Of a DNA stretch of 64,000 nt, positions 5,795-57,886 are shown one piece after another. The stretch comes from Rhodanobacter panaciterrae (GTDB lineage Bacteria; Pseudomonadota; Gammaproteobacteria; Xanthomonadales; Rhodanobacteraceae): assembly GCF_014651895.1 (NCBI RefSeq), contig NZ_BMXT01000001.1, positions 124,001 through 188,000 on the forward strand, given 5' to 3'. Position 1 is the first letter of the stretch. Every line of letters starts with the position of its first letter. The position numbers and the translations under genes are program-made. The notes under the pieces were generated by a model. The model made no database searches, had not been told where the DNA came from, and saw only the letters and a list, made by a program, of their open reading frames with translations.

Positions 5795-5891
5795 TGCTGT
5801 CTGGCAGCCATCTGACTGGCTGCGGTCGGCAGCTCCCGATCCGCCGGACGGTTACACTCTCAACTTGGTGCAATGTGCGCAGGAGATCGCC

Positions 5892-6332: not shown

Positions 6333-6389
6333 ATCGGCATTGACACGGCGCCAGCGGGCCCGGCGGCGGCCGATCGCGCCGATCTGGCC

Positions 6390-6395
6390 TATAAT
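6390..6395 (+). promoter_or_regulatory. candidate -10 element upstream of fba
   Basis: A perfect TATAAT occurs in otherwise GC-rich DNA about 85 bases before the fba start. No convincing -35 box lies at the usual spacing (the TTGACA at 6340 is too far away), so this is only a candidate. Confidence 0.35.
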
Positions 6396-6479
6396 TGACG
6401 TTTTTAACCATGCCGCTTCGCTCTCGAGGCGGTTTCAACCTTGTGCGGGCACGCATCGTCCTCGCTATACGGAGTCGTC

Positions 6480-30506: not shown

Positions 30507-30760
30507 CAAGTACGTCCATGGTTTGACGGAGAGTGGCCAAGGCAACTTGGCCACCTGGCAGACAGTAAATGATGCCTGTTCTTGCCTTGTCGACCAAGCG
30601 CAGAGGGGTCGTAGGGCCAGGTTGGGCGAGAAAAGGCCGCAGTTTGCCCATTCCTGCATGAACGCGAAGCTTGGCGCCATTCGGCAACGAGGGGCATAGA
30701 AGCTAAGATGACGGACTTCATAACACGAGGCAGCCCGCCAGGCGGGCTGTGAGAACAGCG
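30507..30760. promoter_or_regulatory. divergent region between rmlB and the cystathionine enzyme gene
   Basis: About 250 bases hold both promoters by position. A 9-bp palindrome (CAGCCCGCC/GGCGGGCTG, 30731-30749) ends 11 bases before the downstream ATG and could hide its ribosome site. No clear -10/-35 pair was found for either side. Confidence 0.35.
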
Positions 30761-31927
30761 ATGAAAACTGGTGCAAAGCGTAGCCAACATGGCATGGGAA
30801 CCCGGGCCATTCATGCCGGCCAGCATCCGGATCCCAGCACCGGCGCGATCATGACGCCGATCTACGCTACCTCGACCTACGTGCAGGCAAGCCCCGGCAA
30901 GCACAAAGGTTACGAGTATTCACGCACACAGAATCCCACCCGTATGGCGTACGAGCGCTGCGTGGCGGAACTGGAAGGTGGCGTGGCCGGCTTTGCGTTT
31001 GCCTCCGGTTTGGCCGCGGCCGCGACGGTGCTGGATCTGCTCGATTCGGGCAGCCATGTCATTGCGATGGACGACCTCTACGGCGGCACCTATCGCCTGT
31101 TCGAAAAGGTGCGGCGGCGTTCGGCCGGGCTGGATTTCAGCTTTGTCGACCTGAATGACACCGGCGCCATGAAGGCGGCGCTGAAGCCCAACACGCGGAT
31201 GATCTGGGCCGAAACGCCGACTAACCCGATGCTTAAGCTGGTCGACCTGACCAAGGTCGCCGCATTCGCCAAGAAACACGGCCTGATCCTGGTGGTCGAC
31301 AACACGTTCTGCTCGCCGATGCTGCAGCGTCCGCTGGAATACGGCGCGGATCTGGTGCTGCATTCGGCCACCAAGTACCTCAACGGCCATTCCGACATGG
31401 TGGGCGGCATCGTGGTCGCCGGCAGCCAAGAACTCGCCGAGCAGATGGGCTTCCTGCAGAACTCGGTCGGCGCCGTCGCCGGTCCGTTCGACTCTTTCCT
31501 TGCGATGCGCGGCCTGAAGACCCTGCATCTGCGTATGAAGGCACACTGCGAAAGCGCGCTGGAACTGGCGAAGTGGCTTGAAAAGCATCCGGCGGTCGAA
31601 CGCGTGATCTATCCCGGCCTCAAGAGTCATCCGCAACATGCCCTGGCGAAACGCCAGATGGATGGCTTCGGCGGCATCATCACGATCGAGGTGAAGGGTG
31701 GCCTGAAAAAGGCCAGACGCATGCTGGAACGCTGCGAATTGTTTGCGTTGGCCGAATCACTCGGCGGCGTCGAGAGTCTGATCGAGCACCCCGCCATCAT
31801 GACCCACGCCTCGGTACCGGCGGCCAACCGCAAGCGGCTGGGTATCAGCGACGGGCTGATCCGGTTGTCGGTGGGCGTGGAGGACATCGAGGATCTTCGC
31901 CACGAATTGTCCGAGGCACTGAGCTGA
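30761..31927 (+). CDS. metB: cystathionine gamma-lyase / gamma-synthase
   Basis: The 388-residue PLP enzyme belongs to the Cys/Met metabolism family. It shows [18 protein letters not shown], the [11 protein letters not shown] block, [10 protein letters not shown], and the PLP lysine Lys205 in [13 protein letters not shown]. Gamma-lyase and gamma-synthase cannot be told apart safely; with a CBS-type beta-synthase at 17843, the lyase is likely. The ATG at 30761 is chosen over a GTG twelve bases upstream. In Xanthomonas this gene marks one border of the LPS locus, as it does here. Confidence 0.85.
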
Positions 31928-32044: not shown

Positions 32045-32866
32045 ATGCATTTGAACAACATGAGTTGGCTATTGAGTCCTGTCGGGGCTCTGCGAGAACA
32101 CCGGTCACTGACCTTCGAGCTTGCGAAGCGCGATGTGCTTGGTCGCTATCGTGGCGCCAGCTTCGGACTGCTTTGGTCCCTGATCAGCCCGTTCCTCCTG
32201 CTATGCGTGTACACGTTCGCTTTCGGTACCGTAATGGGAGGGCGCTGGCCGCAAATCGGCGATGGCCACGCCCATTACTCGATCATTCTTTTTGCGGGAA
32301 TGATTGTTCATGGATTCCTGGCTGAATGCATCAATCGGGCGCCCCAGCTAATCGTGGGGAATCCGAATTTCGTGAAACGGGTGATATTTCCGCTGGAAAT
32401 TCTTCCGTGGCCCATGGTCTTTTCGGCGCTGTTTCATGTGTTCATGAATCTGATCGTATTCATGGCGCTGCGCTGGTTCATGGATGGGGCGTTTTCATGG
32501 ACGATCATCATGTTCCCATTAGTCATGTTTCCATTGGTCGTGTTGGCGCTTGGCGTTTCCTGGTTCCTGGCCTCGGCAGGTGTCTACATGCGCGATGTGG
32601 GCCAGGTAACTGGCGTGCTGACCATGGCATTGCTTTTTCTTTCTTCGGCCATGATGCCGATAGCTTCGGTACCTGCATCGTATCGTTGGGTGTTCATTGC
32701 CAATCCTCTGACGTTCATCATTGACCAAGCTCGCAATGTGATGCTGTGGGGTCAGATGCCGGACTGGGCCGGGCTTGGCATTTATCTGTTGGTTGCGCTA
32801 GTCGTGGCCTATTTGGGGCGCGCTTGGTTCGTGGCCACCCGGAAAGGATTTGCGGATGTCCTCTGA
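32045..32866 (+). CDS. wzm: O-antigen ABC transporter permease Wzm
   Basis: The 273-residue ABC-2-type permease exports lipid-linked O-polysaccharide across the inner membrane. The N-terminal AKRDVLGRYRGASFGLLWSL is the family gate helix, followed by about six membrane helices and the NPLTFIIDQARNVMLWG loop. The downstream gene encodes its ATPase, with an overlap of 11 bases. An in-frame ATG at 32060 is an alternative start. This defines an ABC-dependent O-antigen pathway, in line with the absence of wzx and wzy in the window. Confidence 0.93.
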   Translation: MHLNNMSWLLSPVGALREHRSLTFELAKRDVLGRYRGASFGLLWSLISPFLLLCVYTFAFGTVMGGRWPQIGDGHAHYSIILFAGMIVHGFLAECINRAPQLIVGNPNFVKRVIFPLEILPWPMVFSALFHVFMNLIVFMALRWFMDGAFSWTIIMFPLVMFPLVVLALGVSWFLASAGVYMRDVGQVTGVLTMALLFLSSAMMPIASVPASYRWVFIANPLTFIIDQARNVMLWGQMPDWAGLGIYLLVALVVAYLGRAWFVATRKGFADVL

Positions 32867-34232
32867 TGCTGCCATTCAGGTGCGTGGCCTGTCCAAAGCC
32901 TTCCCCATTTACAGCAAGCCTCATCATCGCTTGCTGCAGATGATTGCACCGGGACCGAAGGATCGTTGGTTCCGCGAATTTCACGCCTTGCGAAATATCG
33001 ATCTCAACATCTCCCGCGGCGAGACCGTTGGGATCGTTGGCCGCAACGGCTCCGGCAAATCGACGTTGCTGCAGCTCATCTGCGGTACGCTCACGCCGAG
33101 TGCTGGCGATATCCAGGTCAATGGACGAATTGCCGCATTGCTCGAGCTGGGCGCAGGCTTCAATCCGGAATTCACCGGGCGCGAGAATGTTTTTCTCAAT
33201 GCGACCGTGCTGGGATTGAAGCATGCCGAGATTATCGAGAAATTCGATGAGATTGCCGCATTTGCGGATATCGGCGACTTTATTGATCAGCCGGTAAAGA
33301 GCTATTCCAGCGGCATGTACGTTCGTCTGGCTTTCGCGGTGGCGATCAATGTTTCGCCGGAAATCCTGGTGGTGGACGAGGCGTTGTCGGTGGGCGATGA
33401 AGGGTTTCAGCGCAAGTGTTTCGCGCGCATTGACGCGATCCGCGACTCGGGTGCGACCGTGCTGTTTGTTTCACATTCCGCCAGTACCGTCGTCGATCTG
33501 TGCGACCGCGCGATCCTGCTCGATCGGGGTGAATTGTTGACGCAGGGTACACCCAAGCATGTGGTTTCGCGATACCAGAAGCTGCTCTATGCGCCGGCGG
33601 ATCGGGTGGTACAGATCCGCGAGGAGATTCGCGCATCGTCAGTAGACGGCGCCGGGGCGGTGAAGCGATCCGTGGCCTTGGGTAATGACGATGCCTCATC
33701 AACAACGGACTCGGCTCCTGTTGCAGCACCGGAAGAGGAACGCCAGCCCTATTGGGAGGAGGGCATGGTGCCGTCAAGCACCGTTTCTTACGAAAATCGC
33801 GGTGCGGCCATCGAGGCTCCTCACTTGCAGACGCTGGATGGGCACAAGGTCAACGTGCTGGTCCCTGGAGGCACTTACGTCTACACGTACAAAGTGCGGC
33901 TGGAGCGCGCGCTGGTGAATGTGCGGTGCGGGATGATGATCCGTTCCATCACCGGCATCGAAGTGGGTGGCGCAGCCACCTCGCAGCCGCATAGTGGGTT
34001 GCCGGTGGTCGAGGCGGGTGAGGTGATCAATGTGCGCTTCCGGTTCCGGTGTCTGCTTGCACCGGGTACCTATTTTCTCAACGCAGGCGTGCTCGCGACG
34101 CTCGGCGAAGGTGAGGAGTACGTTGATCGTCAGATCGATGTGGCCATGTTCCGCGTGATGCCTACCGCGGATCGACTGGCGACCGGTTTCGTCGATCTGG
34201 ACGTTGTGCCGCAGCTGTCGATTGCTTCATGA
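32856..34232 (+). CDS. wzt: O-antigen ABC transporter ATPase Wzt with glycan-binding C-domain
   Basis: The 458-residue product has an ABC domain with Walker A GRNGSGKS (about 62-69), the signature YSSGMYVRLAF (150-160) and Walker B EILVVDEALSVGDEG. After a linker of about 50 residues, residues about 305-455 form a beta-rich Wzt C-terminal domain (for example VNVLVPGGTYVYTYKVRLE). In known systems such a domain binds the capped end of the O-chain and selects finished chains for export. The ATG at 32856 has AAAGGA upstream. Its stop overlaps the next gene by ATGA, tying it to the sulfotransferase-like protein. Confidence 0.93.
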   Translation: MSSDAAIQVRGLSKAFPIYSKPHHRLLQMIAPGPKDRWFREFHALRNIDLNISRGETVGIVGRNGSGKSTLLQLICGTLTPSAGDIQVNGRIAALLELGAGFNPEFTGRENVFLNATVLGLKHAEIIEKFDEIAAFADIGDFIDQPVKSYSSGMYVRLAFAVAINVSPEILVVDEALSVGDEGFQRKCFARIDAIRDSGATVLFVSHSASTVVDLCDRAILLDRGELLTQGTPKHVVSRYQKLLYAPADRVVQIREEIRASSVDGAGAVKRSVALGNDDASSTTDSAPVAAPEEERQPYWEEGMVPSSTVSYENRGAAIEAPHLQTLDGHKVNVLVPGGTYVYTYKVRLERALVNVRCGMMIRSITGIEVGGAATSQPHSGLPVVEAGEVINVRFRFRCLLAPGTYFLNAGVLATLGEGEEYVDRQIDVAMFRVMPTADRLATGFVDLDVVPQLSIAS

Positions 34233-35623
34233 CCGCGGGCAATTCCACTGCCATTCTGGTTGCGGGCATGCATCGCAGCGGCACCTCGGCCCTGACGGGT
34301 GCGCTGAATGTGCTCGGCATATCGCTTGGCGAGCATTTGCTGGCTCCCGGCGAGGACAATCCCAAAGGCTATTGGGAGCACCAGGGCGCGGTCGAGATTC
34401 ATGAACGCTTGCTCGTGGCGCTGGAGCGGCGCTGGGACGACGTTCGTCCGTTGCCGGCCGGATGGTTGACCAGCGACGCAGCACAAATGGCGTTGGCTGA
34501 AATCAGCGAAATGGTTTCGCGGGAATTTGCCGGGGCACCTGTATGGGCGGTCAAGGACCCACGGATATGCAGATTTCTGCCGCTGTGGATTGAGGCGCTG
34601 CGGACGCTGGGCATCCGGCCGGTGGTCCTGTTTGCCGCCCGTCGGCCGAGCGAAGTGGCGGCATCGATCGCCGCTCGAAACCATTGGTCTGCGCCGGTCA
34701 GCGAGATGCTGTGGTTGCGACATGTGCTGGAAGCGGAGGCGGCCAGTCGGATGGTGCCGCGCGCCGCAGTCATCTACGACGATCTGCTGGCTGATCCCGC
34801 CGACACAGTTTCAACTGCCTTGGCGCGGCTGGATATCGGGATTACGCGCCCGTCTGCCATGGAGCAAGGCGCTCTTGCGGAGTTTGTGGACAGCGCTGAC
34901 CGGCATCACGCGCACCGTACGACGGAAGAGCGTCCCACCACGCTGGCCCAGATTGCTGATGCGGCTTATGCATCACTGACCGAAATTGCCCATGGCGTGG
35001 ATGCTTGGCAGTCGCTGCAGCACTGCGGCACTCGTTTCGAAGCGGAATGGCAGCACTGCGGATCCAGCATCGAGGCGGTTGCAGACATGGCTTATCGCTT
35101 CAGTATGAACGAGGTTGCCGCCGGTATCGAAGCGAGCCGACTGGCAAGCGACCTGAATGCCCAGATCCGCTGGTCGGAAGAGGCTGTTGAAATACGCTCC
35201 GCCTTGCAGGCGAATCACGACGAGCTGTCGGCCCAAGCGCAAGCGCTTGCGCGCGAGCGCCATCATCTCGTCACTGAGCTTGAGCGGGTGACGGGCGATG
35301 CGATGCGGGTCGGGCAGGAACTGTCGATTTCCGAGATTCGCGTGGCGCAAGTCGAGTCGGAGCTGTCGCTTTCTCAGACTCGCGTGGCGCAAGTCGAGTC
35401 GGAGCTGTCGCTTTCTCAGACTCGCGTGGCGCAAGTCGAGTCGGAGCTGTCGCTTTCTCAGACTCGCGTGGCGCAAGTCGAGTCGGAGCTGTCGCTTTCG
35501 CAGGCCGAAGCAAGTTCACGGGCTGCTGTGATCGAAGAGATGTTGCAGTCCCGCTCCTGGAAAATCACGCGCCCCATGCGCGGAATCGCTCGAGTGTTCC
35601 GAGGCATGGCACATCGGCGCTGA
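34229..35623 (+). CDS. sulfotransferase-like protein with long repeat coiled coil
   Basis: The 464-residue product has an N-terminal sulfotransferase fold. The 5'-phosphosulfate loop is AGMHRSGTSALTGAL (residues 12-26) and a 3'-phosphate region is FAARRPSEVAASIAARNHW. From about residue 320 to 445 it is a coiled coil. Its core is four copies of a 14-residue unit (TRVAQVESELSLSQ; the first copy starts with I) at residues 370-425. It ends in a basic, amphipathic tail (SRSWKITRPMRGIARVFRG) likely to touch the membrane. Translation is coupled to wzt. The layout matches chain-end modifying enzymes such as WbdD, whose coiled coil acts as a length ruler; sulfation instead of methylation is inferred. 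Confidence 0.75.
   Translation: MTAGNSTAILVAGMHRSGTSALTGALNVLGISLGEHLLAPGEDNPKGYWEHQGAVEIHERLLVALERRWDDVRPLPAGWLTSDAAQMALAEISEMVSREFAGAPVWAVKDPRICRFLPLWIEALRTLGIRPVVLFAARRPSEVAASIAARNHWSAPVSEMLWLRHVLEAEAASRMVPRAAVIYDDLLADPADTVSTALARLDIGITRPSAMEQGALAEFVDSADRHHAHRTTEERPTTLAQIADAAYASLTEIAHGVDAWQSLQHCGTRFEAEWQHCGSSIEAVADMAYRFSMNEVAAGIEASRLASDLNAQIRWSEEAVEIRSALQANHDELSAQAQALARERHHLVTELERVTGDAMRVGQELSISEIRVAQVESELSLSQTRVAQVESELSLSQTRVAQVESELSLSQTRVAQVESELSLSQAEASSRAAVIEEMLQSRSWKITRPMRGIARVFRGMAHRR
35336..35503 (+). repeat. four tandem 42-bp repeats within the coiled-coil gene
   Basis: Units start at 35336, 35378, 35420 and 35462 and are nearly identical at DNA level (first unit starts ATTCGC, others ACTCGC; the last ends TTCGCAG rather than TTCTCAG). 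Each unit is 14 codons, two coiled-coil heptads, so copy changes keep the frame. Such identity points to recent expansion. Confidence 0.95.
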
Positions 35624-35724: not shown

Positions 35725-36870
35725 GTGATCTTCTATACCTCGATTTGCTCCAACTACCTGCCCAAGGCCATGGCATTGGCGGAATCCGTCAAGCGTCATT
35801 GCCCCAACGCGTACTTCGTACTCTGTCTGGTCGAGAGGCAGGTACCCGACGTGGCGGCTGCATATCCGCATTTTGACGAGATCATTCTTGCAAAGGACGC
35901 GGGTTGGGAGAATTTCGACAGCTTCATGTTCCGTCACTCCATCGTCGAGGCTTCCACTGCGGTCAAGCCGCGTTTTATGCAGCACCTGGTCGAGCGCTAC
36001 CAGTCAGAGTCCAAGTTTGTCTATCTGGACCCCGATGTGCTGGTCTACAGCGATCTGATGGAACTGGAGGCATTACTCGACCGTGAATCCATTGTGCTCT
36101 GTCCGCATCTGCTGCGTCCGGGCAATATCGACATGGAGATCAGCTCGCTCGCCCATGGCAGTTACAACCTTGGCTTCCTCGCGGTGAGTCGGGCGCAGAA
36201 TGCCATCGACTTCCTCGACTGGTGGGCGGAGCGCCTGTTCCTCTTCTGCTATGACGACAAGAGCCGCGGTATCTTCACCGACCAGAAGTGGATCGACCTG
36301 GTGCCGAGCTTCTTCGACGCGCACATCCTCAAGCATCACGGTTACGACTTCGCCACGTGGTCACTGCTTGGCAGCGACATGCGCCAGGTGGATGGCCGCT
36401 ACATGATCAATGGCGATCCGCTGCGTTTTATCCATTTCTCCGGGCTGGATTCGGGCACGATCGACAAGGCGATCGGCTGGTGGCTGACCGATGACAACAA
36501 GGACACATTTGTCTCGCTGTACAGGGAATACCTGAGCCTGTTGGCCCGCCATGGGCAGGAGAAGCTCGGCAAACTGCCCTGGACCTATTCAACCTACGCA
36601 GATGGCCGCCCGGTTGGAAAGGCTGCGCGAATTGCCTACCGCAACAGTGAGCTCTGGCAGATATTTCCGTCGCCATTCGATGTGGATGATGCACAGATCC
36701 TGCAAACGGCAGGCAGTGAAGGTGTCATGGTCGACTCGAATGCACCGTCGCCGGCTGTTGTGTCTGACGGTATCCTCGACCGGTTCGCCCGGTCGAGCCG
36801 GCAGATCGGACTAGGCCCGACCATGCTCAAGGCGTTCCGGAAGATCACGCGTCCGGGAAGCGGGGTCTGA
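35725..36870 (+). CDS. glycosyltransferase, GT8-like nucleotide-sugar fold
   Basis: The 381-residue product starts with a GTG codon (MIFYTSICSNYLPKAMALAE), preceded by an AGGGTG ribosome site. It has KFVYLDPDVLVYSD, a D-x-D type metal motif, and later GSYNLGFLAVSR and DQKWIDLVPSFFD, as in the nucleotide-diphospho-sugar transferase families related to GT8. It is soluble with a basic C-terminus (KAFRKITRPGSGV). The next gene starts two bases after its stop. It likely adds one sugar of the O-chain; donor and acceptor are unknown. Confidence 0.7.
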   Translation: MIFYTSICSNYLPKAMALAESVKRHCPNAYFVLCLVERQVPDVAAAYPHFDEIILAKDAGWENFDSFMFRHSIVEASTAVKPRFMQHLVERYQSESKFVYLDPDVLVYSDLMELEALLDRESIVLCPHLLRPGNIDMEISSLAHGSYNLGFLAVSRAQNAIDFLDWWAERLFLFCYDDKSRGIFTDQKWIDLVPSFFDAHILKHHGYDFATWSLLGSDMRQVDGRYMINGDPLRFIHFSGLDSGTIDKAIGWWLTDDNKDTFVSLYREYLSLLARHGQEKLGKLPWTYSTYADGRPVGKAARIAYRNSELWQIFPSPFDVDDAQILQTAGSEGVMVDSNAPSPAVVSDGILDRFARSSRQIGLGPTMLKAFRKITRPGSGV

Positions 36871-36872
36871 CC

Positions 36873-37712
36873 GTGCCACGGGTCTCGATCATCATCCCGT
36901 GTTACAACGCGGGTGAGTTGCTGACCGAAGCGGTGCAATCGGCACTTGCACAGACCTGGGAGGATCTGGAGGTCGTGATCGTTGACGACGGTTCGACCGA
37001 TTCGGCCACGCAGAAGATTCTCGAACAGGCCTCCTGGCCGCGGACCCGGATAGTTCACCAAACTAATGCAGGGCCTTCTGCCGCGCGCAATCGCGCCGTC
37101 CAGATGGCTACGGGGCAGTACATCCTGCCGCTGGATGCAGACGATACCATCGAGCCCCAATACGTTGCCAAGGCAGTTGCCGTGCTCGATGCAAGGCCGG
37201 AGGTAGGCGTGGTCTACTGCAAGGCAAGAAAGTTTGGGGCGGAGGAGGGGCCGTGGAATCTGCCGGCCTATTCACTGCGGGAACTGGTGATCGACAACGT
37301 GATCTTCGTGACTGCCCTGTACAGGAAGGCGGATTGGGCAGCTGTGGGCGGCTATAACGAAAAGTTGCGCCATGGCGTCGAGGACTACGAGTTCTGGGTG
37401 AAAATCGTTCACTTGGGCCGAGAGGTAGTGCAACTCGATGAAAGCCTTTTCAATTACCGCATTCAACAGAAATCAAGAACCACCTCTTTTCAGGATGGCA
37501 GGGCGGCCGTCGTGGAGACCTACGCTGAGATATTTCGTTCAAATATCAGCTTCTATGCGGCGCACGCAGATTTTCTCTTTGAACATCGATTCGGGTTGTA
37601 TGACGAATTAGGGCATTGGCGTTCACGCTATGGAAAGCTGGACGCATTCTTCAATCGTCATCCAGTGTTATTGAAAATCGGCAGACGACTGAAAAGGATT
37701 TGCAGATATTGA
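36873..37712 (+). CDS. family 2 glycosyltransferase
   Basis: The 279-residue product is a plain GT2 (GT-A fold) enzyme with VSIIIPCYNAGELLTEAV, VIVDDGSTDSATQ, PSAARNRAVQMATGQYILPL and LDADDTIEP, and the acceptor-side motif GVEDYEFWVKI. It uses a GTG start and directly follows the previous transferase, so the two are one unit. GC content drops towards its 3' end and stays low up to about 41 kb, which suggests acquired DNA. Confidence 0.85.
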   Translation: MPRVSIIIPCYNAGELLTEAVQSALAQTWEDLEVVIVDDGSTDSATQKILEQASWPRTRIVHQTNAGPSAARNRAVQMATGQYILPLDADDTIEPQYVAKAVAVLDARPEVGVVYCKARKFGAEEGPWNLPAYSLRELVIDNVIFVTALYRKADWAAVGGYNEKLRHGVEDYEFWVKIVHLGREVVQLDESLFNYRIQQKSRTTSFQDGRAAVVETYAEIFRSNISFYAAHADFLFEHRFGLYDELGHWRSRYGKLDAFFNRHPVLLKIGRRLKRICRY

Positions 37713-45585: not shown

Positions 45586-46719
45586 TCAGGCTAGCCCCAG
45601 AATGTGCTGCGCGGCCTGCATGACGTGATCATGCTGATCCTCCAAGCCAACCCAGAGTGGCAGTCGCACCAGACGGTCACTGGTGGCGTCGGTGTGCGGC
45701 AGTGGCCCAGCTGCACGCCCATAGCGTTGGCCGGCCGGTGAGCTGTGCAGCGGAATATAGTGGAAAACCGTACCTATGCCGGTAGCCATCATCGCCTCGA
45801 TGAAGTGCGTTCGTGCTTCCAGATCGCGTAGCAGCAGGAAATACATGTGTGCGTTATGCATACAGTGATCCGGCACGATGGGACGACGCAGCGTGCCGTT
45901 CCTTTCCAGCGGAGCTGCCCATCGGTGGTAATGATCCCAGATCGCCAATCGTCGGGCGGTGATGCCTTCGGCTTCCTCCAGTTGTGCGGCGAGAAAGGCA
46001 GCAATCAATTCGCTGGGAAGGTATGACGAACCGATGTCGACCCAGGTGTATTTGTCGACCTGCCCGCGGAAAAACTTGCTGCGATTGGTACCCTTTTCGC
46101 GAATCACCTCTGCGCGTTCGATCAGCGCGGGATCATTGATCAGCAGCGCACCGCCTTCCCCGGAGATCACATTCTTCGTCTCATGGAAGCTCAGTGCGGC
46201 CAGGTCACCGATGCTTCCCAGGGCACGGCCCTTGTAGCTGGACAGAATGCCCTGAGCAGCATCCTCGATCACTTTCAACCCATGTCGTGCGGCGATCGCC
46301 ATGATCGTGTCCATCTCGCAGGCAACGCCGGCATAGTGCACCACGCAGATCGCACGGGTGTGCGGCGTGATTGCCTGCTCGATCAATGTCTCGTCAATAT
46401 TCAGCGTATCCGGCCGGATATCCACGAATACCGGCACGGCACCGCGCAACACGAAGGCGTTAGCGGTTGAGACGAAAGTGAATGACGGCATGATCACTTC
46501 GTCGCCTGGTTGCAGATCCAGCAGGATCGCCGCCATCTCCAGTGCCGCTGTGCATGACTGCGTCAACAGCGCCTTGCATACGCCGAGGCGCTGCTCCAGC
46601 CATGTGTGGCAGCGCCGGGTGAAAGCACCATCGCCGGACAGCTGGCCATTGGTATGGGCTTGCGCGATGTAGTCAAGCTCGCGGCCAACAAGATAAGGAC
46701 GATTGAACGGAATGGTCAT
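45586..46719 (-). CDS. dTDP-4-amino-4,6-dideoxyhexose transaminase (WecE type)
   Basis: The 377-residue PLP aminotransferase is very close to E. coli WecE along its length. It shows TIPFNRPYLVGRELDYI, SGDGAFTRRCHTWLEQR, MPSFTFVSTANAFVLRG, NIDETLIEQAIT, VHYAGVACEMDTIMA, the PLP lysine Lys182 in SFHETKN, and EKGTNRSKFFRGQVDKYTW. It should aminate dTDP-4-keto-6-deoxyglucose, the RmlB product, at C4. The ATG at 46719 starts similarity. No acetyltransferase (WecD) is nearby; the neighbours are WbqC and an ATP-grasp protein instead. Confidence 0.88.
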   Translation of the reverse strand: MTIPFNRPYLVGRELDYIAQAHTNGQLSGDGAFTRRCHTWLEQRLGVCKALLTQSCTAALEMAAILLDLQPGDEVIMPSFTFVSTANAFVLRGAVPVFVDIRPDTLNIDETLIEQAITPHTRAICVVHYAGVACEMDTIMAIAARHGLKVIEDAAQGILSSYKGRALGSIGDLAALSFHETKNVISGEGGALLINDPALIERAEVIREKGTNRSKFFRGQVDKYTWVDIGSSYLPSELIAAFLAAQLEEAEGITARRLAIWDHYHRWAAPLERNGTLRRPIVPDHCMHNAHMYFLLLRDLEARTHFIEAMMATGIGTVFHYIPLHSSPAGQRYGRAAGPLPHTDATSDRLVRLPLWVGLEDQHDHVMQAAQHILGLA

Positions 46720-46804
46720 GGGAATGTTAGCCGTGTCGGCAATCGAAGCCATTGGCTGGCGAGACGCTGGGCTATCGAGGGTATTGGCACGATGCCCGTA
46801 TTAT

Positions 46805-47512
46805 TCATGCGGCACCATGGCGATGGCCCCAGATGTATTCAGGTGCCTGTGGCCCCGTGTTGAAGATCAGGTCGACGATACTTACCGCGTGTTCGAATGG
46901 CGGATACAGCTGGACATAGTCCGGGTAGTCAGAATAGTTTTTGAACTGAAGCTCGATACCCATTGCTTCGAATCTTGAAGGATCGAGGTAGTCAGCAGCC
47001 ATCGGCCCAGAGATGTAACGCGTAGCGCCACTCAGTTGGAGAAGATCCAGGATGCGATCGAGCTTTGCCCCTTGCGCCGGATAACTGCGTGAATCGGAGA
47101 AAGTGGTATGGATACCAAGCAAGTCATGGGCTATGCGCTGCGTCATTGCCCTGTTCATGTGCGAAAGATTCGTCCAGGTCTTCCCGAGATACAGTTCTTC
47201 GAAGAAGGCAGCGTACTGCCGAAAGTAGGGCGCGCGCGAATAACTGTGACAAAGGGTCTTCCAGTGCTTCTGCTGCCAGCTCGATTCGTCCAGGCTCACT
47301 TCGCAGATGAGGCGATTGCGATTGGCGCCGGCCGGGACAGTCAGCCAGCTAGTGCCATTTGCAGTCTTGATGCGGTTTCTGGTGCGCCAGTCACGTACCG
47401 TGTACTGGACGTCATCGAGAAAAATGAACTCATCCACATCGTGGATGATGTCGAAATATCCCTTCCACGGAATATACGACGATTGAATGATGGCGACCTT
47501 GTGTCTGCTCAT
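46805..47512 (-). CDS. WbqC family protein
   Basis: The 235-residue product is a clear member of the WbqC family: KVAIIQSSYIPWKGYFDII, FLDDVQYTVRDWRTRNRIK, WLTVPAGANRNRLICEV, CHSYSRAPYFRQYAAFFEEL and ISGPMAADYLD. The family occurs in O-antigen and other glycan loci and its reaction is not settled; amide or acyl transfer to amino sugars is one idea. Its ATG overlaps the stop of the ATP-grasp/HAD gene by four bases, so the two work together. Confidence 0.85.
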   Translation of the reverse strand: MSRHKVAIIQSSYIPWKGYFDIIHDVDEFIFLDDVQYTVRDWRTRNRIKTANGTSWLTVPAGANRNRLICEVSLDESSWQQKHWKTLCHSYSRAPYFRQYAAFFEELYLGKTWTNLSHMNRAMTQRIAHDLLGIHTTFSDSRSYPAQGAKLDRILDLLQLSGATRYISGPMAADYLDPSRFEAMGIELQFKNYSDYPDYVQLYPPFEHAVSIVDLIFNTGPQAPEYIWGHRHGAA

Positions 47513-49161
47513 GGCACTAGACAGGCATGGCGGGCGGACAGCAGGCTGTCCACCATGTCGATCCTGCTGGTTAACTGTGCAGGAATTCGCGCCGCGATGC
47601 CTGCATGTGGGCTCAAAAAACCACCTTCGCGCCGGACAATCAATGCGTGCATGTATCCGGCCTGCACCGCACCGACGCCATCGCGAAAATAGTTGTCACC
47701 AATCATCACCAGATGCTTCGGTTCGGTGGAAAGTGCACGTGCGGCCTGGAGGAAGCCGGCGCTGTCGGGCTTTTCGTTACCGTGGTCTCGTGCATAAATC
47801 ACGGCATCAATGCCGCGCAATTCAGGCGCATGCTGCACTTTGGCTTCTTGCGTGGCGTGCGGGTTATCGGTGAGGATAGCCACGGGCAGACCAGCGGCCC
47901 TCAATGCAGTGAGCATGGGCACAACATCAGGAAACAGGGGTGTGTCGGACACGATGGCCGCACGATAGGCTGCGATGGCGCTGTCACGCAGCGTGGTCGG
48001 GAGAGCCAGTAAGGCGAGCAAACGGTCGATGAGAAGCGCCCGCTCACCCTCGTCAATCAGTTGCGTCGCGCGCATGAGGAAAGTCGTCTCCTCGACGTGC
48101 TCGGAGAATATTTCCGGAAAGATCGCCTCGAGTTTTCGCAACATCCACGCCTTGTGATCAACCAGTGTGTCGTCGAGGTCGAAAACGATACCTTTCGGCG
48201 GATGCGCCAGACGGGGGATCACGATGTCCGTCAGTACGCGAACGGTCTTGCCCATCTTACGGACTGGCGCGGGGCTGCTGACCGCGCCATCGGCGGAATC
48301 CATGAAGAACCCGGGTAGGTTGATACATTCGCTGAGCGCATGCGTCGCGGACGTGCCGATGCGCGGATTGACGTCGGAAACAAATGGCGCATCCGTGCCG
48401 GATTGCAGCATTTGTACGTTGAACAGACCGCGGCCACCTGCGTGACTGAGGCTGTTGGCAGTGCGCTGCGCGGTATCTCCCAGTACGGTATCGGCAACCG
48501 ACTCGGAGATCACCGCGAACCCGCCGGAGGTCCGCAGCCGCCTGCGCAGGACGATCGTCGAGATCTCGCCGTGCACGCCGATCGCAAAGTCGGCGGAGAA
48601 CTCCTCGAATTGCGCCAGCCAGGGTGTCCATACATGTGTTGACAAGTCGCCGTGATAGGCATGCGCCTCGTCGCGGCTGTGCAGCATGACGGTCCCGCGG
48701 CCACCCCAGCCATGGCGAAGGCGACCAAACAAGGGTTGGTCGTAACTGAAGGTCAGCGGATCGACCAGTGCGGGTACGGGCAGGCCGGCCGCATGCAGGA
48801 ACTCATGGGTAGATTGCTTGTCGAGCAGTCGATTCAGCAAACCTTCTTCCGCGATGGCAACAAGTACACCGCGCGCGTGCAGTTGGGCCTTCAATTGCGA
48901 CAGCGCATGCAGTTCAAGCGCGGTAGCGGGGAAGATCACATTCACCCGTTCACGTGCCACCGTCTCCAGCAGGAAATCGGCGAAGCCATGCGTGTCCGAA
49001 AGCGGCGGGGCTACTAGGTAGCCATCGCAGATGTAGCGGGTAATGTTTTCCGGATAAAGGTCGCAGACGAGCACTCTCGTGTCGCTACGTTGTTGCAGTG
49101 CGCTGACCAAGGTCAGTCCCTGAAAGCCGCCGCCATTGACGACCAAAGCCGTTTTTTTCAT
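47509..49161 (-). CDS. ATP-grasp ligase fused to a HAD phosphatase
   Basis: The 550-residue product has a CarB-like ATP-grasp unit in residues 1-315. It shows a pre-ATP-grasp fold (VVNGGGFQGLTLVSALQ), the glycine loop HGWGGRGTVML at about 150, a beta block FEEFSADFAIGVHGEIS, and the metal triad region FVSDVNPRIGTS with Asn265 and Arg267. Residues 322-530 are a HAD phosphatase with VFDLDDTLVDHK (Asp328, Asp330), ILTDNPHATQEAKV and MIGDNYFRDGVGA. ATP-grasp enzymes join an acid to an amine through an acyl phosphate. Overlaps by ATGA on both sides tie it to the methyltransferase and WbqC genes. Substrates are unknown. Confidence 0.8.
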   Translation of the reverse strand: MKKTALVVNGGGFQGLTLVSALQQRSDTRVLVCDLYPENITRYICDGYLVAPPLSDTHGFADFLLETVARERVNVIFPATALELHALSQLKAQLHARGVLVAIAEEGLLNRLLDKQSTHEFLHAAGLPVPALVDPLTFSYDQPLFGRLRHGWGGRGTVMLHSRDEAHAYHGDLSTHVWTPWLAQFEEFSADFAIGVHGEISTIVLRRRLRTSGGFAVISESVADTVLGDTAQRTANSLSHAGGRGLFNVQMLQSGTDAPFVSDVNPRIGTSATHALSECINLPGFFMDSADGAVSSPAPVRKMGKTVRVLTDIVIPRLAHPPKGIVFDLDDTLVDHKAWMLRKLEAIFPEIFSEHVEETTFLMRATQLIDEGERALLIDRLLALLALPTTLRDSAIAAYRAAIVSDTPLFPDVVPMLTALRAAGLPVAILTDNPHATQEAKVQHAPELRGIDAVIYARDHGNEKPDSAGFLQAARALSTEPKHLVMIGDNYFRDGVGAVQAGYMHALIVRREGGFLSPHAGIAARIPAQLTSRIDMVDSLLSARHACLVP

Positions 49162-49895
49162 GGGGCGCGTGCGATCAGCAGGATCCCATTGGCGATATCG
49201 GGATACTCGTAACCCACATCGATGAAGGCCTTCTCGACGCGCTCATCCAGCGACAGCTGGCGCAATTGCGATGTCGTCAGTGGCTTCAACACCAGGCCCA
49301 GTTTGTGCAGCAGGGCATAGCCGGATTCCTCGACCAGTTGGGTGATTGACTGGCTGTCGAAATAGCGTTTATGGCCTAGCTCCCGATCGAACTGGCTCAA
49401 GGCGTAGATATCCTGCATGAATCCCGCGGCCTGACCAAGCAGCCGGTGCAGCGAGCGCGCATTGGGCACCGATGCGAACAGCACACCACCCGGTTTCAGG
49501 AAGGTCCGGAAACGGCGCAGAATCAGACCCGGATCATCGACATGCTCCAGTACGAACCCCATTTCGACGGCATCAAAAGTCTGCTCGAAATGGGCGTTCT
49601 CGAAATATGTATGGTGAATCGTGACCGATGGCGGTGGTGAGGTTTCAGCTCGGTATCTTTCGATGATGTCCTGCGAGCCCTCGAGTATGTGGTACTCGGC
49701 AATATCGAGTTGCTCAAGCATCGTCCGACTGACCCGCTGTCCACCGATACCCAAGCTGAGCAGTTTGAGCGACGAGCGATCACGCAGCTGTTCCACGATC
49801 TTTTGCGCATAGGCCATCAATAACAGCTCTTCATCCCAATGGTAGGGGAACTGCTCGGTATAGGCGGCCTGATAGGCGTCGAGATTTTCTCTCAT
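49158..49895 (-). CDS. SAM-dependent methyltransferase
   Basis: The 245-residue product has motif I LKLLSLGIGGQRVSRTML, an acidic second strand (YHILEGSQD), MGFVLEHVDDPGLILRRFR and LKPGGVLFASVPNARS, all of the class I methyltransferase family. It overlaps the ATP-grasp gene by four bases and follows the GT2 gene by ten bases. It may methylate the sugar or the acyl group made by the operon. Confidence 0.8.
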   Translation of the reverse strand: MRENLDAYQAAYTEQFPYHWDEELLLMAYAQKIVEQLRDRSSLKLLSLGIGGQRVSRTMLEQLDIAEYHILEGSQDIIERYRAETSPPPSVTIHHTYFENAHFEQTFDAVEMGFVLEHVDDPGLILRRFRTFLKPGGVLFASVPNARSLHRLLGQAAGFMQDIYALSQFDRELGHKRYFDSQSITQLVEESGYALLHKLGLVLKPLTTSQLRQLSLDERVEKAFIDVGYEYPDIANGILLIARAP

Positions 49896-52955: not shown

Positions 52956-55808
52956 CTAAGCCTTGTGGCCGCTGGCGGTGATCACCTCGCCGCGGCCGGT
53001 GTAGTTGTCCTCGACACGAAGCGCTTCGGCCCATTTGCCCAACTGCCACAGTCCAGTCCCGATGCAACGCAGTGGTTCTTGGACATGGATGCTGTCGAAG
53101 GCGAGGTCGGCTGTCTCTGCACCTGTCACGTTGCAGACATCGTCGATGAACTGTTGTGCGCCGGCCTGGATGCGTTCGATCATGTTCCACTTACTCGTGT
53201 TCACCGCATTCGGAAAGTGCACGGGGAGGGGGGTGCCAGAGCCGGATTCGAAGTGTGAAAACTGGCCATCCGGAGAGGTAAGGATGGCCTCGAGCATGAG
53301 GTGGAACTTCATTACAGGCGATTCGGAGGGGTCGCCGCGGCGCTCATCGAAGAAGCGGGCGCGAGCCCAGCCGTCATTTACCTGCACCTGGTCCATGGCC
53401 TGTTTTGCAGCGAAGTAGGCACCACCCAGCGTATGGCCTGTCAGTTTCGAAAGTTGGGTCTGGATGGTCCCTGCGTATCCGATGTCGGCGACGATGACGC
53501 TGCCTTCGCCTGCTTGGGCTTCCCAATATTTCATGTAGAGATCGCGCTCTTCCCTGGCGATATCGAGGATGGTCGCAGCGAGCGGGCGCAGCCAATCAAT
53601 AATCCTTGTGCTCATCTGCGGCAGGAATACCTCGGTGGCGACGAAGGGTCTGCCCAGATGTTTGGTTGCGACAGCAGTAATGCGTGCACCGAGTCTGACA
53701 TTGAGCAGGTTTTCCAGCGATCCGGTATAGGGCGCGCTGAATATCCCCGCCAGATCCTCGATCGTGCGCAGTGCTGGGGTGTTCACCCCGCGTCGCGAAA
53801 CCAGCAGGTAGCGTGCCTGGATGACGCCGAGATGGGGGCTTGCCATCTGCAGTCTCTGGAATGCGCGCTGAAGCAAGTAACCTTCGCGGCTGAGGAAGAG
53901 AATCCTTCCCGCCCCGCTGTCCAGCGTCAGGCGAGCTAGCCAGATGACGTAGTCGAGAACCAGCGGGCCCATGACGGTGTAGCCCAAGGTCTCAGGTTCT
54001 TCGATGGCCAGAGGCTGGCCAAAGGTGGTGGGATGGCCGTCGGCCAGTTCGTTGAAGTGGTTGGCGACCAGCCCAAGCCATAACTGATCCTGCCAGCGGT
54101 CAGGCTGCCCTGATTTCGGGCGCAGGCTGCGCAACGCAGGGACGACATCCAGCAGTGAGCTGGAGCGCAAGGCATGTACGGGGTGAATAAATCCCATCGC
54201 CAAGGGAAGTTGAACGTCGGAGTGCTCGTTGTCTCCAACATGCAGCCACTGTCCGGTTGGGACATTCTCGATTTTCGGCAGATGCCGCCATGCCTCGGCG
54301 GTGTCCTTGCGCCAGCCGTTCTCGCATGAAACGTGGATTTTCTGGAGAGTGTCCGAAACCACCGGAGGGAGTACGCGGCGCAGTTCGTCTGTGCTGAAAT
54401 ACATGTCGGATACGGCAACGATACGTTTGTCAGAGTGGGCAAGCTCACGGATGGAATCGATCAGGGTTGCCCTTGGCTTCAGTAGACGCTTTTCAGTGTC
54501 GAGCTCCAGCTCGCGGAGATCCGCCACGGAGATCCCTCGCAGTTCGGCCGTGTTTGCCATGGTGTCGTAGATGATGGTGCAGTCGACATCGCGCCCATGC
54601 TTAATGCGCGCCATCGTTTCGGCGCGGGACCTGAGAGTGGCGAAATCCATCAGTCCAAATTTTTTCTCGACGAGATGAGCGAGGTAATCCCGCGCGCCCG
54701 ACGGATGCAGGAACGGGCGCGTCACCAGGGTATCGAACAGGTCAAACGAGACGATCTTTGCATCGATCGCGGCGAAACGGACCTTGTGCGCCAGCGGAGC
54801 GGTGAAATAGGTCATCCAGTTCCGCTCTCCCTCGCTTCTCAACGTCGCCGTGCCATCCGCAGGAATGACTCCGAGCACCATGCCCTGGTGCCGAACGATC
54901 AGACCGAGCATTCGCTCCACGACATGCTGTGTGGTGCCGTCGGTCTGGCCCTGCTCTTCCGGGAAGGCATCCAGCGGCAACTTCAGTTCGTACAGCGGAC
55001 GCAATGCATCGGTGCGGGCCCAGAACATCGAGCCGGCTGGGTAATCCAGATACGCCATGGGATTGATGCCCACCCCAAGTCGCGTCCCCAATTCGCGCGC
55101 GGGGCCGCTGTTGGATAGCCATGTATGCGCCCACAACGGCATCGAGATGAAACTTTCCGGGTAGACCATGCCGAGGCGCGGCATGGCCTGGAACATGCCA
55201 AGGATCCAGGCCACCCGATCGTTGCTACCGAGCAGGGCGTCAATCAGGTAACGCCGCCACTTCCCCTGTTCGCTGCCGGAGTAGAGCGACTTCTTGGTGT
55301 GAATATGGCAGATGAGATCGAGAGCCAAGACCTCTTCGCGGAAGGTCAGCAGGAACGGTGCAATGTCACGACCACGGTTGGGTACGACACGGACATGCAA
55401 GGTCTGGACGTTCGGAATCTTTCCGAAACGCGACAGCGCCGCGATCCTGGTCTGCTCATCGATGACCGAAACCATCAGGACGAACGGAACGGGTACATGC
55501 GCGACATCATTCGCGAGTTCGTCGAGCAAATCCGCGTAGAAGACATGGATCATGATGCCGAGACTGAGTTCGAGCTGGCTCAGCTGGCTGGCTGTCGGAA
55601 ACGATATGGCATCGGGTGAAGTAGCGGCGCGGGGCTCAGCTTGTCGCGATGCGCGGATTCGCTGCGCGAAGCCGCTCCAGCCGAGCGCCCGGACGACCCG
55701 TAGGCTTCGGGCAGCCACCGAGCGCACCCCAGCCCATCCACCGCCGTGTCGGTCAATGGCGGCGCGTATCAGGTCCACGATGGCAGCGAGTTTTCTCATG
55801 ACTACCAT
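52956..55808 (-). CDS. large RgpF-domain and HAD-domain polysaccharide protein
   Basis: The 950-residue product has three parts. Residues about 85-350 match the rhamnan synthesis protein F family (IMIHVFYADLLDELA, VPNRGRDIAPFLLTF, ICHIHTKKSLYSGSEQGKWR). Residues about 370-560 are a HAD unit with SFDLFDTLVTRP, SDMYFSTDELRR and HVGDNEHSDVQLP. The rest (about 600-930) is a region usually fused to this HAD type (FLSREGYLLQRAFQRL, VADIGYAGTIQTQLSKL). The RgpF link and the dTDP-rhamnose operon suggest rhamnan or O-chain assembly. Starts at ATG 55808, or ATG 55799 three codons on. Confidence 0.75.
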   Translation of the reverse strand: MVVMRKLAAIVDLIRAAIDRHGGGWAGVRSVAARSLRVVRALGWSGFAQRIRASRQAEPRAATSPDAISFPTASQLSQLELSLGIMIHVFYADLLDELANDVAHVPVPFVLMVSVIDEQTRIAALSRFGKIPNVQTLHVRVVPNRGRDIAPFLLTFREEVLALDLICHIHTKKSLYSGSEQGKWRRYLIDALLGSNDRVAWILGMFQAMPRLGMVYPESFISMPLWAHTWLSNSGPARELGTRLGVGINPMAYLDYPAGSMFWARTDALRPLYELKLPLDAFPEEQGQTDGTTQHVVERMLGLIVRHQGMVLGVIPADGTATLRSEGERNWMTYFTAPLAHKVRFAAIDAKIVSFDLFDTLVTRPFLHPSGARDYLAHLVEKKFGLMDFATLRSRAETMARIKHGRDVDCTIIYDTMANTAELRGISVADLRELELDTEKRLLKPRATLIDSIRELAHSDKRIVAVSDMYFSTDELRRVLPPVVSDTLQKIHVSCENGWRKDTAEAWRHLPKIENVPTGQWLHVGDNEHSDVQLPLAMGFIHPVHALRSSSLLDVVPALRSLRPKSGQPDRWQDQLWLGLVANHFNELADGHPTTFGQPLAIEEPETLGYTVMGPLVLDYVIWLARLTLDSGAGRILFLSREGYLLQRAFQRLQMASPHLGVIQARYLLVSRRGVNTPALRTIEDLAGIFSAPYTGSLENLLNVRLGARITAVATKHLGRPFVATEVFLPQMSTRIIDWLRPLAATILDIAREERDLYMKYWEAQAGEGSVIVADIGYAGTIQTQLSKLTGHTLGGAYFAAKQAMDQVQVNDGWARARFFDERRGDPSESPVMKFHLMLEAILTSPDGQFSHFESGSGTPLPVHFPNAVNTSKWNMIERIQAGAQQFIDDVCNVTGAETADLAFDSIHVQEPLRCIGTGLWQLGKWAEALRVEDNYTGRGEVITASGHKA

Positions 55809-55849
55809 TGGCGCAACGTCGTCGGGCTATCCATGAGAGGCATTCGCGA

Positions 55850-57886
55850 TCAACCGAGAGTGCGCTGCAGGACGGCGGCTGCGGCGTCCGTCGAGAAATG
55901 TTCGCGCACGTTCGCCATGCCGTTGACGCTAAGGGTTTCCCATAGCCTGATGTCGTCATGCAGGCGCACTACGGCGGTGACGAAGGCGGCAGCATCTTCT
56001 GCCACCAGTACATCAATCTCATCGTTCAACTGCATACCTTCGACGGCGATCGATGTGGCAACCACGGGTACACCGTAACTCATTGCCATATTGATCTTGC
56101 CTTTCACGCCGGCCCCGAAACGCAAGGGTGCCAGCGACGCTAGGCAGCTTTCGAGCCATGTCGCCAAGTCCGGCACTCGCCCATGAAAATGGAGACCTGG
56201 CGAAGCCAACTGCTGACGTATCAGCTCGGGCACGTCACCCAGTATATGCACGCGGATATCGGGCAGCACTTCGCGCAATCGCGGCAGGATCTCGCCAGCG
56301 ATCCAGCGGATCGCGTCGCTGTTTGGTGGATGGCCGTAGCCGCCGATGAAGACCAGACCCTTGCGTTGTGCGTGGGGATGTCGGCAGCCGTGGACATCGT
56401 GGATATTGGATAGCAGCTCCACCCGGGCTTGCGGCAGCATCTGCGCAAGCAACGCCTGTTCGTGCGGGCTGACCACGAAGGTGGCATCGCATTGACCGAT
56501 CAACGCCAATTCGCTGCGACGTGACGCTTCGGCCTGACGGGCCATGGCGGAATTGCTGCTCAGTTCCGCGGCGCGTTGTTCGCGCAAAAAGTGCAGATCC
56601 ACCGTGTCGAACAGCAGCTTTGCCTGTGGTGCGTGTTTGCGCACCAGGTCGGCGTATTGGCCGGCTACGGTGTGGCGGCACAGGATCACTGCGTGCAATT
56701 CGCTGCCGTGTTCACGCAGCCACCCAGGCAGCTCGGACACCCACGGCTTGCACAACACCTCGACACCAAGCGAGCCGAGTGCCGTGATCTCCTGCGTGCT
56801 GGCGCGACCATCGTCGGGTAAAAAGCTGGTGGACCAACCCTGTTCATCCAGCAGGCGCAGGATCGCCGATAGCCGCAGCGAGCCCGAATCGCGCGCAGGC
56901 TCCGGCGTCATCGTATCCACCACCAGGATGCGGCCGCGCGCACGCCAGCGAACCGCGCGTTCCAGCGATGTGCCGACGGGCGGTTGCGAGGCAAGTTCGA
57001 CCTTCCATTTATCGACGAACTTCGCCTGATTGATCACCTGATGGCGTTTGATGCCGCTGGTGAGGTCGGTGCCCGCTGTTATGCCTTCGCAGTGGATGAT
57101 GGTGCTGGTCGGCTCGTAATAGACACGCAGGCCGAGTTGACGTACCGCGAACGCCAGATCGGTGTCCTCGTAATAGGCCGGCGCATAGCGGTCATCGAAG
57201 CCGCCAACGCGCTGGAACACCTCGCGGCGCATCAGCAGCGAGGCGCCGGAGACGTAATCAGTTTCGCGGCGATAGCGGAACGCGGGTGCGTCGCGTAGTT
57301 CGAAGCGGCCGGTGGCCCAGCAACTGCCGTCGGCGAATACCAACCCGCCGGCCTCCTGCAAGCGACCATCCGGATAGACCAGTCGGCTGCCGGCGATGCC
57401 ACAGTCGGCGCGTTCGGCGAAGCAGCGCAGCAAGGCATCCAGCCAGCCGGATGTCACCTGCGTATCGTTGTTGAGAAACAGCAGAAACTCGCCGCGCGCC
57501 ACGGCGGCACCGGCATTGCAACTGCCGATGAAACCGAGATTGCGCTCATTGCGCAACAACCGCAGGCCGGCGACTTGCGCCAGTGCGGTGGCGCTGTCGT
57601 CGGGCGAGGCATCGTCCACCACGATCACCTCGAACGGCGCTTGCGCACCGTGTCGGGCCAACGAGCGCAGGCAGGCGAGGGTATGGGCGAGCTTGCCGTG
57701 GATCGGTATGACGATGGAAACCTGTGATTCTTCAGCTACCGGCAGCGTAAACGGCGCGAACGCCTCATCCAGCGGCAGCAGCGACAGGTCTTCGTCGTGT
57801 TCAGGTCGTGACTGGAACTCCTGACGCATCCGCGCCAGCGTGCCGCGCCAGCCACGCAGGGCAAAGCTGCCACGTGTACGTTGCAA
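55850..57886 (-). CDS. two-domain glycosyltransferase (GT2 plus GT4-like)
   Basis: The product of 678 residues or more has a GT2 unit at about 55-290 (VSIVIPIHGKLAHTLACLRS, VIVVDDASPDDS, FLLFLNNDTQV, YAPAYYEDTDLAFAVRQLG). A GT-B, GT4-like unit follows at about 330-670 (GLVFIGGYGHPPNSDAI, DIRVHILGD, FGAGVKGKINMAMSYGVPVV). The start is unclear: TTG 57886 has no ribosome site, and coding-like sequence (IPLIGNLPWRLKRLSYLL) runs back without a stop to the ETF-QO stop at 57950. CTG 57931 or ATT 57937 after GAGGG may be used, or the 5' end was lost on insertion. Confidence 0.8.
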   Translation of the reverse strand: MQRTRGSFALRGWRGTLARMRQEFQSRPEHDEDLSLLPLDEAFAPFTLPVAEESQVSIVIPIHGKLAHTLACLRSLARHGAQAPFEVIVVDDASPDDSATALAQVAGLRLLRNERNLGFIGSCNAGAAVARGEFLLFLNNDTQVTSGWLDALLRCFAERADCGIAGSRLVYPDGRLQEAGGLVFADGSCWATGRFELRDAPAFRYRRETDYVSGASLLMRREVFQRVGGFDDRYAPAYYEDTDLAFAVRQLGLRVYYEPTSTIIHCEGITAGTDLTSGIKRHQVINQAKFVDKWKVELASQPPVGTSLERAVRWRARGRILVVDTMTPEPARDSGSLRLSAILRLLDEQGWSTSFLPDDGRASTQEITALGSLGVEVLCKPWVSELPGWLREHGSELHAVILCRHTVAGQYADLVRKHAPQAKLLFDTVDLHFLREQRAAELSSNSAMARQAEASRRSELALIGQCDATFVVSPHEQALLAQMLPQARVELLSNIHDVHGCRHPHAQRKGLVFIGGYGHPPNSDAIRWIAGEILPRLREVLPDIRVHILGDVPELIRQQLASPGLHFHGRVPDLATWLESCLASLAPLRFGAGVKGKINMAMSYGVPVVATSIAVEGMQLNDEIDVLVAEDAAAFVTAVVRLHDDIRLWETLSVNGMANVREHFSTDAAAAVLQRTLG

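Follow-up and report, generated by a model that had tools for sequence, protein, structure and literature searches.

A predicted sulfotransferase-headed O-antigen chain terminator with a tandem-repeat coiled-coil ruler in Rhodanobacter panaciterrae

In WbdD of Escherichia coli O9a and Klebsiella pneumoniae O3, an N-terminal terminating enzyme is followed by a long coil and a C-terminal amphipathic helix, and the cap that it places is read by the cap-binding module (CBM) of Wzt (PMC11231755, PMC3482155, PMC5082667). A review puts the WbdD coil at about 20 nm and states that insertions or truncations in it shift the modal chain length (PMC5082667). Terminators come as standalone proteins or fused to glycosyltransferases (GTs), and the coil terminators O7 ORF6 and O12 WbbB of K. 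pneumoniae are described as fused to polymerising GTs (PMC11231755). In E. coli O101, a methyltransferase-coil protein is required for O-methylation (PMC13168486). The present analysis concerns a gene of comparable design in Rhodanobacter panaciterrae, located at 34229-35623 of a 64,000-nucleotide stretch (positions 124,001 to 188,000 of contig NZ_BMXT01000001.1; hereafter the window, in whose coordinates features are given, on the forward strand unless marked otherwise). Its open reading frame (ORF), fold model and motifs point to a predicted sulfotransferase chain terminator of 464 residues with a coiled-coil ruler.

The protein resembles WbdD in its N-terminal enzyme, long coil and C-terminal amphipathic helix, and its system resembles that of WbdD in having a Wzt with a CBM. 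Unlike WbdD, it has a sulfotransferase in place of the methyltransferase-kinase, its coil contains recent 42-bp units and its cap chemistry is predicted. It also differs from O7 ORF6 and O12 WbbB, which have methyl-phosphate and Kdo caps, in standing alone, although many of its relatives are of fused size. The polymerase-terminator design with a coil ruler is thus the known part, and the predicted sulfotransferase head and repeat-built ruler are the new ones, making this a new variant. No sulfotransferase chain terminator and no growth of a terminator coil by tandem repeats was described in the literature searched (titles and abstract openings, with few subscription papers and, for one topic, the best 20 of 296). 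The census of chain-termination chemistry by Mann, Kimber and Whitfield (2019; Glycobiology 29:822), which lay outside those searches, is the most likely place for an earlier prediction of such terminators.

The reading preferred here, with a probability of roughly three in four, is that this is a WbdD-type terminator of an O-antigen dependent on an ATP-binding cassette (ABC) transporter. The N-terminal sulfotransferase, dependent on 3'-phosphoadenosine-5'-phosphosulfate (PAPS), would be catalytically active and place sulfate on the non-reducing terminus of the chain during its synthesis, at which point elongation would stop. The co-translated Wzt would read the anionic cap through a CBM pocket that has Arg in place of the Trp of methyl readers. 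The coil would gate distance, and the ruler would change length by in-frame tandem duplication in steps of two heptads, probably affecting chain length. An earlier note, made from the letters of this DNA, had proposed sulfate capping of the chain and tuning of its length by two-heptad units; the architecture, fold, motifs, Wzt pairing, occurrence of both known terminator formats, CBM Arg, lipopolysaccharide (LPS)-type locus and coil-length difference support that proposal in part, whereas end-sulfation and length control are parts that we infer.

The ORF is complete, with an ATG start, and the gene is present in a single copy in the genome, where a weak second match (E 8e-4) is limited to part of the head. 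Its ATG overlaps the stop of wzt in an ATGA at 34229-34232, and the C-terminal glycan-binding domain of this Wzt is well supported (Wzt_C, E 7.7e-28; 97.7 bits against a cut-off of 30.4), both as the earlier note described. The four in-frame 42-bp repeats that it reported were also recovered. Tandem Repeats Finder (TRF) returned a period-42 array at 35317-35503 with 4.5 copies, 95% match and a score of 332, the sole other array within the window scoring 53. Four units, each in frame and each of 14 residues or two heptads, occupy 35321-35488. The first (35321-35362) matches the next at 38/42 bases, and the remaining three (35363-35404, 35405-35446 and 35447-35488) are identical at 42/42. In 200 codon shuffles of the gene no array scored 100 or more, the maximum being 59.

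The full-length structure model (predicted local-distance difference test, pLDDT, of 88.4) continues beyond the head with one helix that spans residues 260-439 and then, after a break, with a final helix at residues 442-458 that is modelled with low confidence. The long coiled coil that had been noticed is thus predicted as a single helix (35006-35545). With a helix rise of 0.1485 nm per residue, its 180 residues correspond to a calculated length of about 27 nm, and a coil of 138 residues to about 20.5 nm. The basic tail described before is likewise present, the last 28 residues holding eight Lys or Arg and one Asp or Glu. Within it, the 18-residue segment 446-463 (35564-35617) has the highest hydrophobic moment among all 447 windows of the protein, and the amphipathic helix sits within and after an SRSWKITRPMR motif that is present in relatives. 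This tail is predicted to be a membrane or partner anchor and fits a membrane-associated helix such as that described for WbdD (PMC11231755).

The catalytic head (residues 1-259; 34229-35005) was compared by fold because searching solved structures with its sequence turned up no sulfotransferase, only three chance matches with E values of at least 0.2. An AlphaFold2 model of the 260-residue head reached a pLDDT of 94.5, and in Foldseek the tyrosylprotein sulfotransferases ranked first (8w5z at E 5.2e-6, followed by 3ap2, 3ap3 and 5wrj), with a probability of 1.00 and a template-modelling score of about 0.5. Bacterial sulfotransferase domains (4gox, 4gbm) were also returned, and PFKFB kinases more weakly. 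A sulfotransferase-fold head of PAPS type followed by a long helix, for which structure prediction had been suggested as a check, is therefore what the models give (Foldseek E 5e-6). The tyrosylprotein sulfotransferases TPST1/2 (3ap1-3, 5wri, 5wrj, 8w5z) share the head fold and the PAPS motifs, but they act on protein tyrosine and have no coil, and the best structural matches show 16-18% identity.

The P-loop recognised earlier as PAPS-type lies at residues 13-20 (GMHRSGTS). In an alignment of 49 sequences that includes the window protein and reaches down to 21% identity with it, MHRSGTS (residues 14-20; 34268-34288), KDPR, R138, P140 and S146 are invariant. In a second set of 49 sequences, the M and H of the P-loop are nearly invariant and the remaining motif residues invariant. 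We take these to be the 5'-phosphosulfate-binding P-loop and the 3'-phosphate-binding motif (R138 to S146; 34640-34666) by which sulfotransferases bind PAPS. Fold and motifs together support a PAPS-dependent sulfotransferase as the predicted identity of the head.

For comparison with relatives, 233 genomes of the family, including that of the window, were searched with a threshold of E 1e-10, and 99 of them contained head matches at or below it. The matches occupied 117 places, G000 and another piece of G152 among them, and 115 places were counted; 35 of these (G005, G227:C16 and G040 among them) fell outside the neighbourhood count. The neighbourhoods themselves are 125 loci (L numbers below), most of which were selected because their heads are similar and 20 of which serve as controls, and hence are not a random sample. 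Control Wzt_C loci, 20 at first and 40 later, were chosen among the matches listed, and one locus with a head adjacent to Wzt (L250) came in only via the controls. Across the 125 loci, 105 genes match the head profile, and the pairing seen in the window recurs. In 51 of them the head lies directly downstream of a CBM-bearing Wzt, in one downstream of a CBM-less Wzt, and in 53 of neither. Among the 51 Wzt-adjacent proteins, 23 have 422-720 residues and 28 are longer, up to 1709. One of the longer relatives (L179, 1589 residues) combines a sulfotransferase head, a coil, and GT2 and GT1 domains. Loci L115-L123, counted with the non-adjacent heads, have sulfotransferase domains in proteins of 868-1050 residues near a Wzt without a CBM match; in L117 the domain order is GT2, GT1 and then a C-terminal Sulfotransfer_3.

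The CBM of the window Wzt (33744-34229) carries four basic positions that accompany sulfotransferase heads, Arg357, Arg425, Arg433 and Arg440 (residue 1 being the Met at 32856; the Arg425 codon is 34128-34130). CBMs beside sulfotransferase heads were compared with those beside other terminator classes, of which 'mtk' (WbdD-like over both domains), 'o7' (like L246, showing only a methyltransferase), 'mt24', 'mt11' and 'duf' were defined by purpose-made profiles built from one to three proteins and FkbM by one built from five and then enlarged. Column 425 is Arg in all 50 sulfotransferase-adjacent CBMs and in 10/10 with the head further off; a looser rule for distant heads gives 13 Arg out of 14 and one Trp, in the second Wzt of L052. 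The same column is Trp in 15/15 loci with an adjacent FkbM protein, 9/9 of Methyltransf_11 type and 8/8 of Methyltransf_24 type (seven adjacent and one further), that is, in 31/31 adjacent loci across three methyltransferase classes. Three WbdD-like loci (L249, L257 and L258), whose terminators match PDB structures of E. coli WbdD across both the methyltransferase and the kinase domain (E 1e-45 to 1e-108), all have Arg. Arg357 and Arg440 follow the sulfotransferase loci in 45/50 and 46/50 cases, respectively, and both are found in 0/24 of the FkbM and Methyltransf_11 loci. Fifteen CBMs were left unclassified, 12 with Trp and three with Arg (L048, L178 and L206); in L178 and L206 the class distance rule overlooked a sulfotransferase head that lies immediately downstream.

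The importance of this column comes from solved structures. A phmmer search of the PDB with the CBM alone gave no match, and a profile of 31 CBMs matched 2r5o (best), 7k2t and 8dku. The residue aligned to column 425 in the Aquifex chain is a Trp with chain index 363, which corresponds to Trp362 because Met353 of the published work has chain index 354. Trp362 stacks on the methyl cap, and its replacement by Leu essentially abolishes LPS binding (PMC9445017). The CBM of Aquifex aeolicus WzmWzt (8dku, 6o14) is thus homologous, with a methyl cap and Trp362 where the window Wzt has Arg. The chain of 2r5o has Arg at the aligned column, as does the window Wzt; it is the CBM of the E. coli O9a Wzt, where the cap is methyl phosphate. 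The Arg pattern in these sequences speaks for a cap that is anionic and probably sulfate. The weight of the association lies in the column being a known cap-contact residue; the sample of evolutionary events is small, and of the two independent pairs that the Trp/Arg switch provides in a tree built from 122 Wzt ATPase domains, both go in the expected direction.

The ruler was compared with that of the nearest relative, Rhodanobacter glycinis S10 (G152), a different species, in which the protein has 422 residues. Alignment of the proteins leaves one gap of 42 residues within the coil, equal in length to three 14-residue units; a looser nucleotide alignment breaks it into pieces. Three units would accordingly have been gained in the window gene, or lost in the other, for a difference of about 6 nm, and a recent gain in the R. 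panaciterrae lineage is favoured because the tandem units are nearly identical. Within Rhodanobacter the number of units would range from one to four. At a TRF score of at least 100, arrays occur in 21/105 head genes, or 7.0 per 100 kb. The rest of the same loci (1.44 Mb) has 12 arrays, or 0.8 per 100 kb, which is about eightfold lower, and six of these 12 belong to coil proteins whose heads are of a different kind, namely five FkbM proteins (L129, L130, L136, L138 and L141) and one methyltransferase joined to a GT (L145). The array of L052 (6512-6908) extends beyond the end of the head gene and was counted outside heads. As a long-coil control, 30 SMC genes had no array at this threshold (one array in those loci lay outside the gene) and one at a score of 80-99 (L223, score 90); the difference between 21/105 and 0/30 has a Fisher p of 0.004. 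Periods are multiples of seven residues in 16/21 arrays (binomial p 3e-10) and sums of 7 and 11 in 20/21; the genes are related, and all these p values serve as guides. The largest arrays are those of L179 (28 residues x 11.8, or 56 residues x 5.8 at 96%), L177 (28 x 6.5) and L104 (35 x 5.0). In L179 (5021-9790, +), the coil of about twelve 28-residue units lies between the sulfotransferase head and the two GT domains. In L139, the gene at 5628-6737 (+) is of the FkbM class and immediately follows a CBM-bearing Wzt; close to its end, a 21-bp unit (YRPNIAS) that does not resemble a coil is repeated in 5.7 perfect copies. Only 9/51 Wzt-adjacent head genes have an array, so that arrays are recurrent and not universal.

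Several results weigh against the proposed terminator. Column 425 is also Arg in 7/7 loci with methyltransferase heads like that of L246, for which Pfam and PDB searches identified a methyltransferase but gave no match to a kinase, an absence that, here and in the other methyltransferase classes, holds for the members on which Pfam was run. Unless a kinase is concealed in it, as it was in K. pneumoniae O7 ORF6 (PMC11231755), this class breaks the Trp/Arg rule. Long methyltransferase-headed proteins lie downstream of Arg-type Wzt in L246, L247 and L267. Arg is likewise found at this column in 5/5 loci with DUF4915 heads, and two of these loci carry it at the 357 position as well; such heads may represent a further terminator chemistry that yields an anionic cap. 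In L248 (4119-5774, -) and L255 (6050-9280, +) the DUF4915-headed protein comes directly after a CBM-bearing Wzt with Arg at the 357, 425 and 433 positions. Moreover, the perfect Trp/Arg match is not statistically independent because the state changes only three times on the tree of Wzt ATPase domains (the head class changes eight times), and independent-pair tests were not significant with two pairs for Trp/Arg and one to two for Arg357 and Arg440. Among the relatives, 54/105 head genes are not immediately preceded by a CBM-bearing Wzt and 10/105 encode fewer than 360 residues (one of them, L126, at a contig end). The repeat comparison depends on one close relative. The Pfam scores of the head fall under the cut-offs (Sulfotransfer_3, 13.8 bits against 27; Sulfotransfer_4, 15.4 against 22.8); in relatives, Sulfotransfer_3 reaches 16.9 bits in L177, 26.7 in L181 and 41.0 in L117. 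Finally, linkage to cysNC says little, as the gene is also found near loci without a sulfotransferase.

A different function for the whole protein would be the sulfation of sugars inside the repeat unit, with the coil merely scaffolding glycosyltransferases and the cap added by another enzyme or absent. Sulfotransferases that decorate the chains of bacterial polysaccharides are known, and the existence of short head-only relatives (315-354 residues), which do not lie directly after a Wzt, means that the sulfotransferase fold can work without a ruler. However, proteins with the long coil are found repeatedly in the position right behind a CBM-bearing Wzt, a slot that elsewhere belongs to FkbM and other methyltransferase-coil proteins, and the neighbouring CBM pocket has Arg at the cap-contact column; internal sulfation is thus considered improbable. 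Still less probable is a head that has the sulfotransferase fold and moves another group or serves as a catalytically dead scaffold. The distant, fold-level similarity to solved sulfotransferases, the lack of a sequence match in the PDB and the low Pfam scores would suit such a head, but the invariance of both PAPS-binding motifs across such divergent sequences would not.

The length-dial part of the proposal has a stronger rival, in which the tandem units are products of replication slippage, tolerated since the register of the coil is kept, and chain length is unaffected. The small share of Wzt-adjacent heads with an array agrees with slippage, and repeats in GC-rich coils may expand easily. 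It is harder to reconcile with the greater density of arrays in heads than in the remainder of the loci, with their absence from the SMC genes at the same threshold, and with their recurrence in methyltransferase-headed coil proteins; the effect of engineered WbdD coil insertions and truncations on modal length, as the review cited above reports it (PMC5082667), also speaks against it. On balance, slippage without consequence is a substantial possibility, although it is not the favoured one. The end-capping terminator with a ruler growing by whole units is retained as the preferred account. Its extension is held only tentatively, at a little under even odds: that O-antigens of this order are sulfate-capped, that a Trp-to-Arg switch in the CBM at the position of Aquifex 362 reads charge (Trp for methyl, Arg for anionic caps), and that the rulers of sulfate- and methyl-headed terminators change by in-frame units of at least two heptads, forming a heritable, frame-keeping length dial. 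If true, sulfate would join methyl, methyl phosphate and Kdo among the known chain-end signals, the charge of a cap could be read from one Wzt residue, and natural rulers would differ by whole repeat units. The evolution of ruler length and its mapping to surface-chain length would then become testable with repeat counts and LPS gels.

The terminator gene lies in a locus that begins beside a metB-like gene (30749-31927; named from its sequence) and continues with Wzm, the permease of the O-antigen ABC exporter (32045-32866; ABC2_membrane, E 5e-21), and Wzt, its ATPase with the C-terminal CBM (32850-34232; ABC_tran, E 2.8e-23). Downstream are a GT8-like protein (35725-36870; Glyco_transf_8, 18.7 bits and thus below the cut-off of 24.3) and a GT2 glycosyltransferase (36873-37712), assigned by domain match and synteny and kept beside the closest heads; Wzm, Wzt, head, GT8 and GT2 are common to the three nearest clusters (L037, L038 and L033). 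The interval extends from the metB-like gene as far as etf-like genes and has rml-like genes beside it, these names also being taken from the sequences. In xanthomonads, metB and etfA flank the LPS locus; wzm and wzt are found at its metB end, and rml genes are close by (PMC2238763). LPS O-antigen is the likely product of the present locus because of this synteny.

A CysNC-type sulfate adenylyltransferase/adenosine-5'-phosphosulfate (APS) kinase is encoded at 62123-63991 and is the only APS kinase match in the genome; PAPS can therefore be made, and the gene indicates no more than that. By coordinates, cysNC shares a contig with the locus and lies no more than 40 kb from it in 10/15 sulfotransferase genomes and near it in 6/14 control genomes (those with a Wzt_C locus and absent from the head-match list), and its linkage was dropped as specific evidence for a sulfotransferase. 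The O-antigen locus has at its far end a convergent block (45586-49895, -) that contains a DegT aminotransferase, WbqC, an ATP-grasp and HAD fusion and a methyltransferase. Just past the etf-like genes, at 52956-57886 (-), an RgpF-domain protein of 950 residues and a GT2 plus GT1 protein of 678 residues are encoded, which possibly form a second glycan set.

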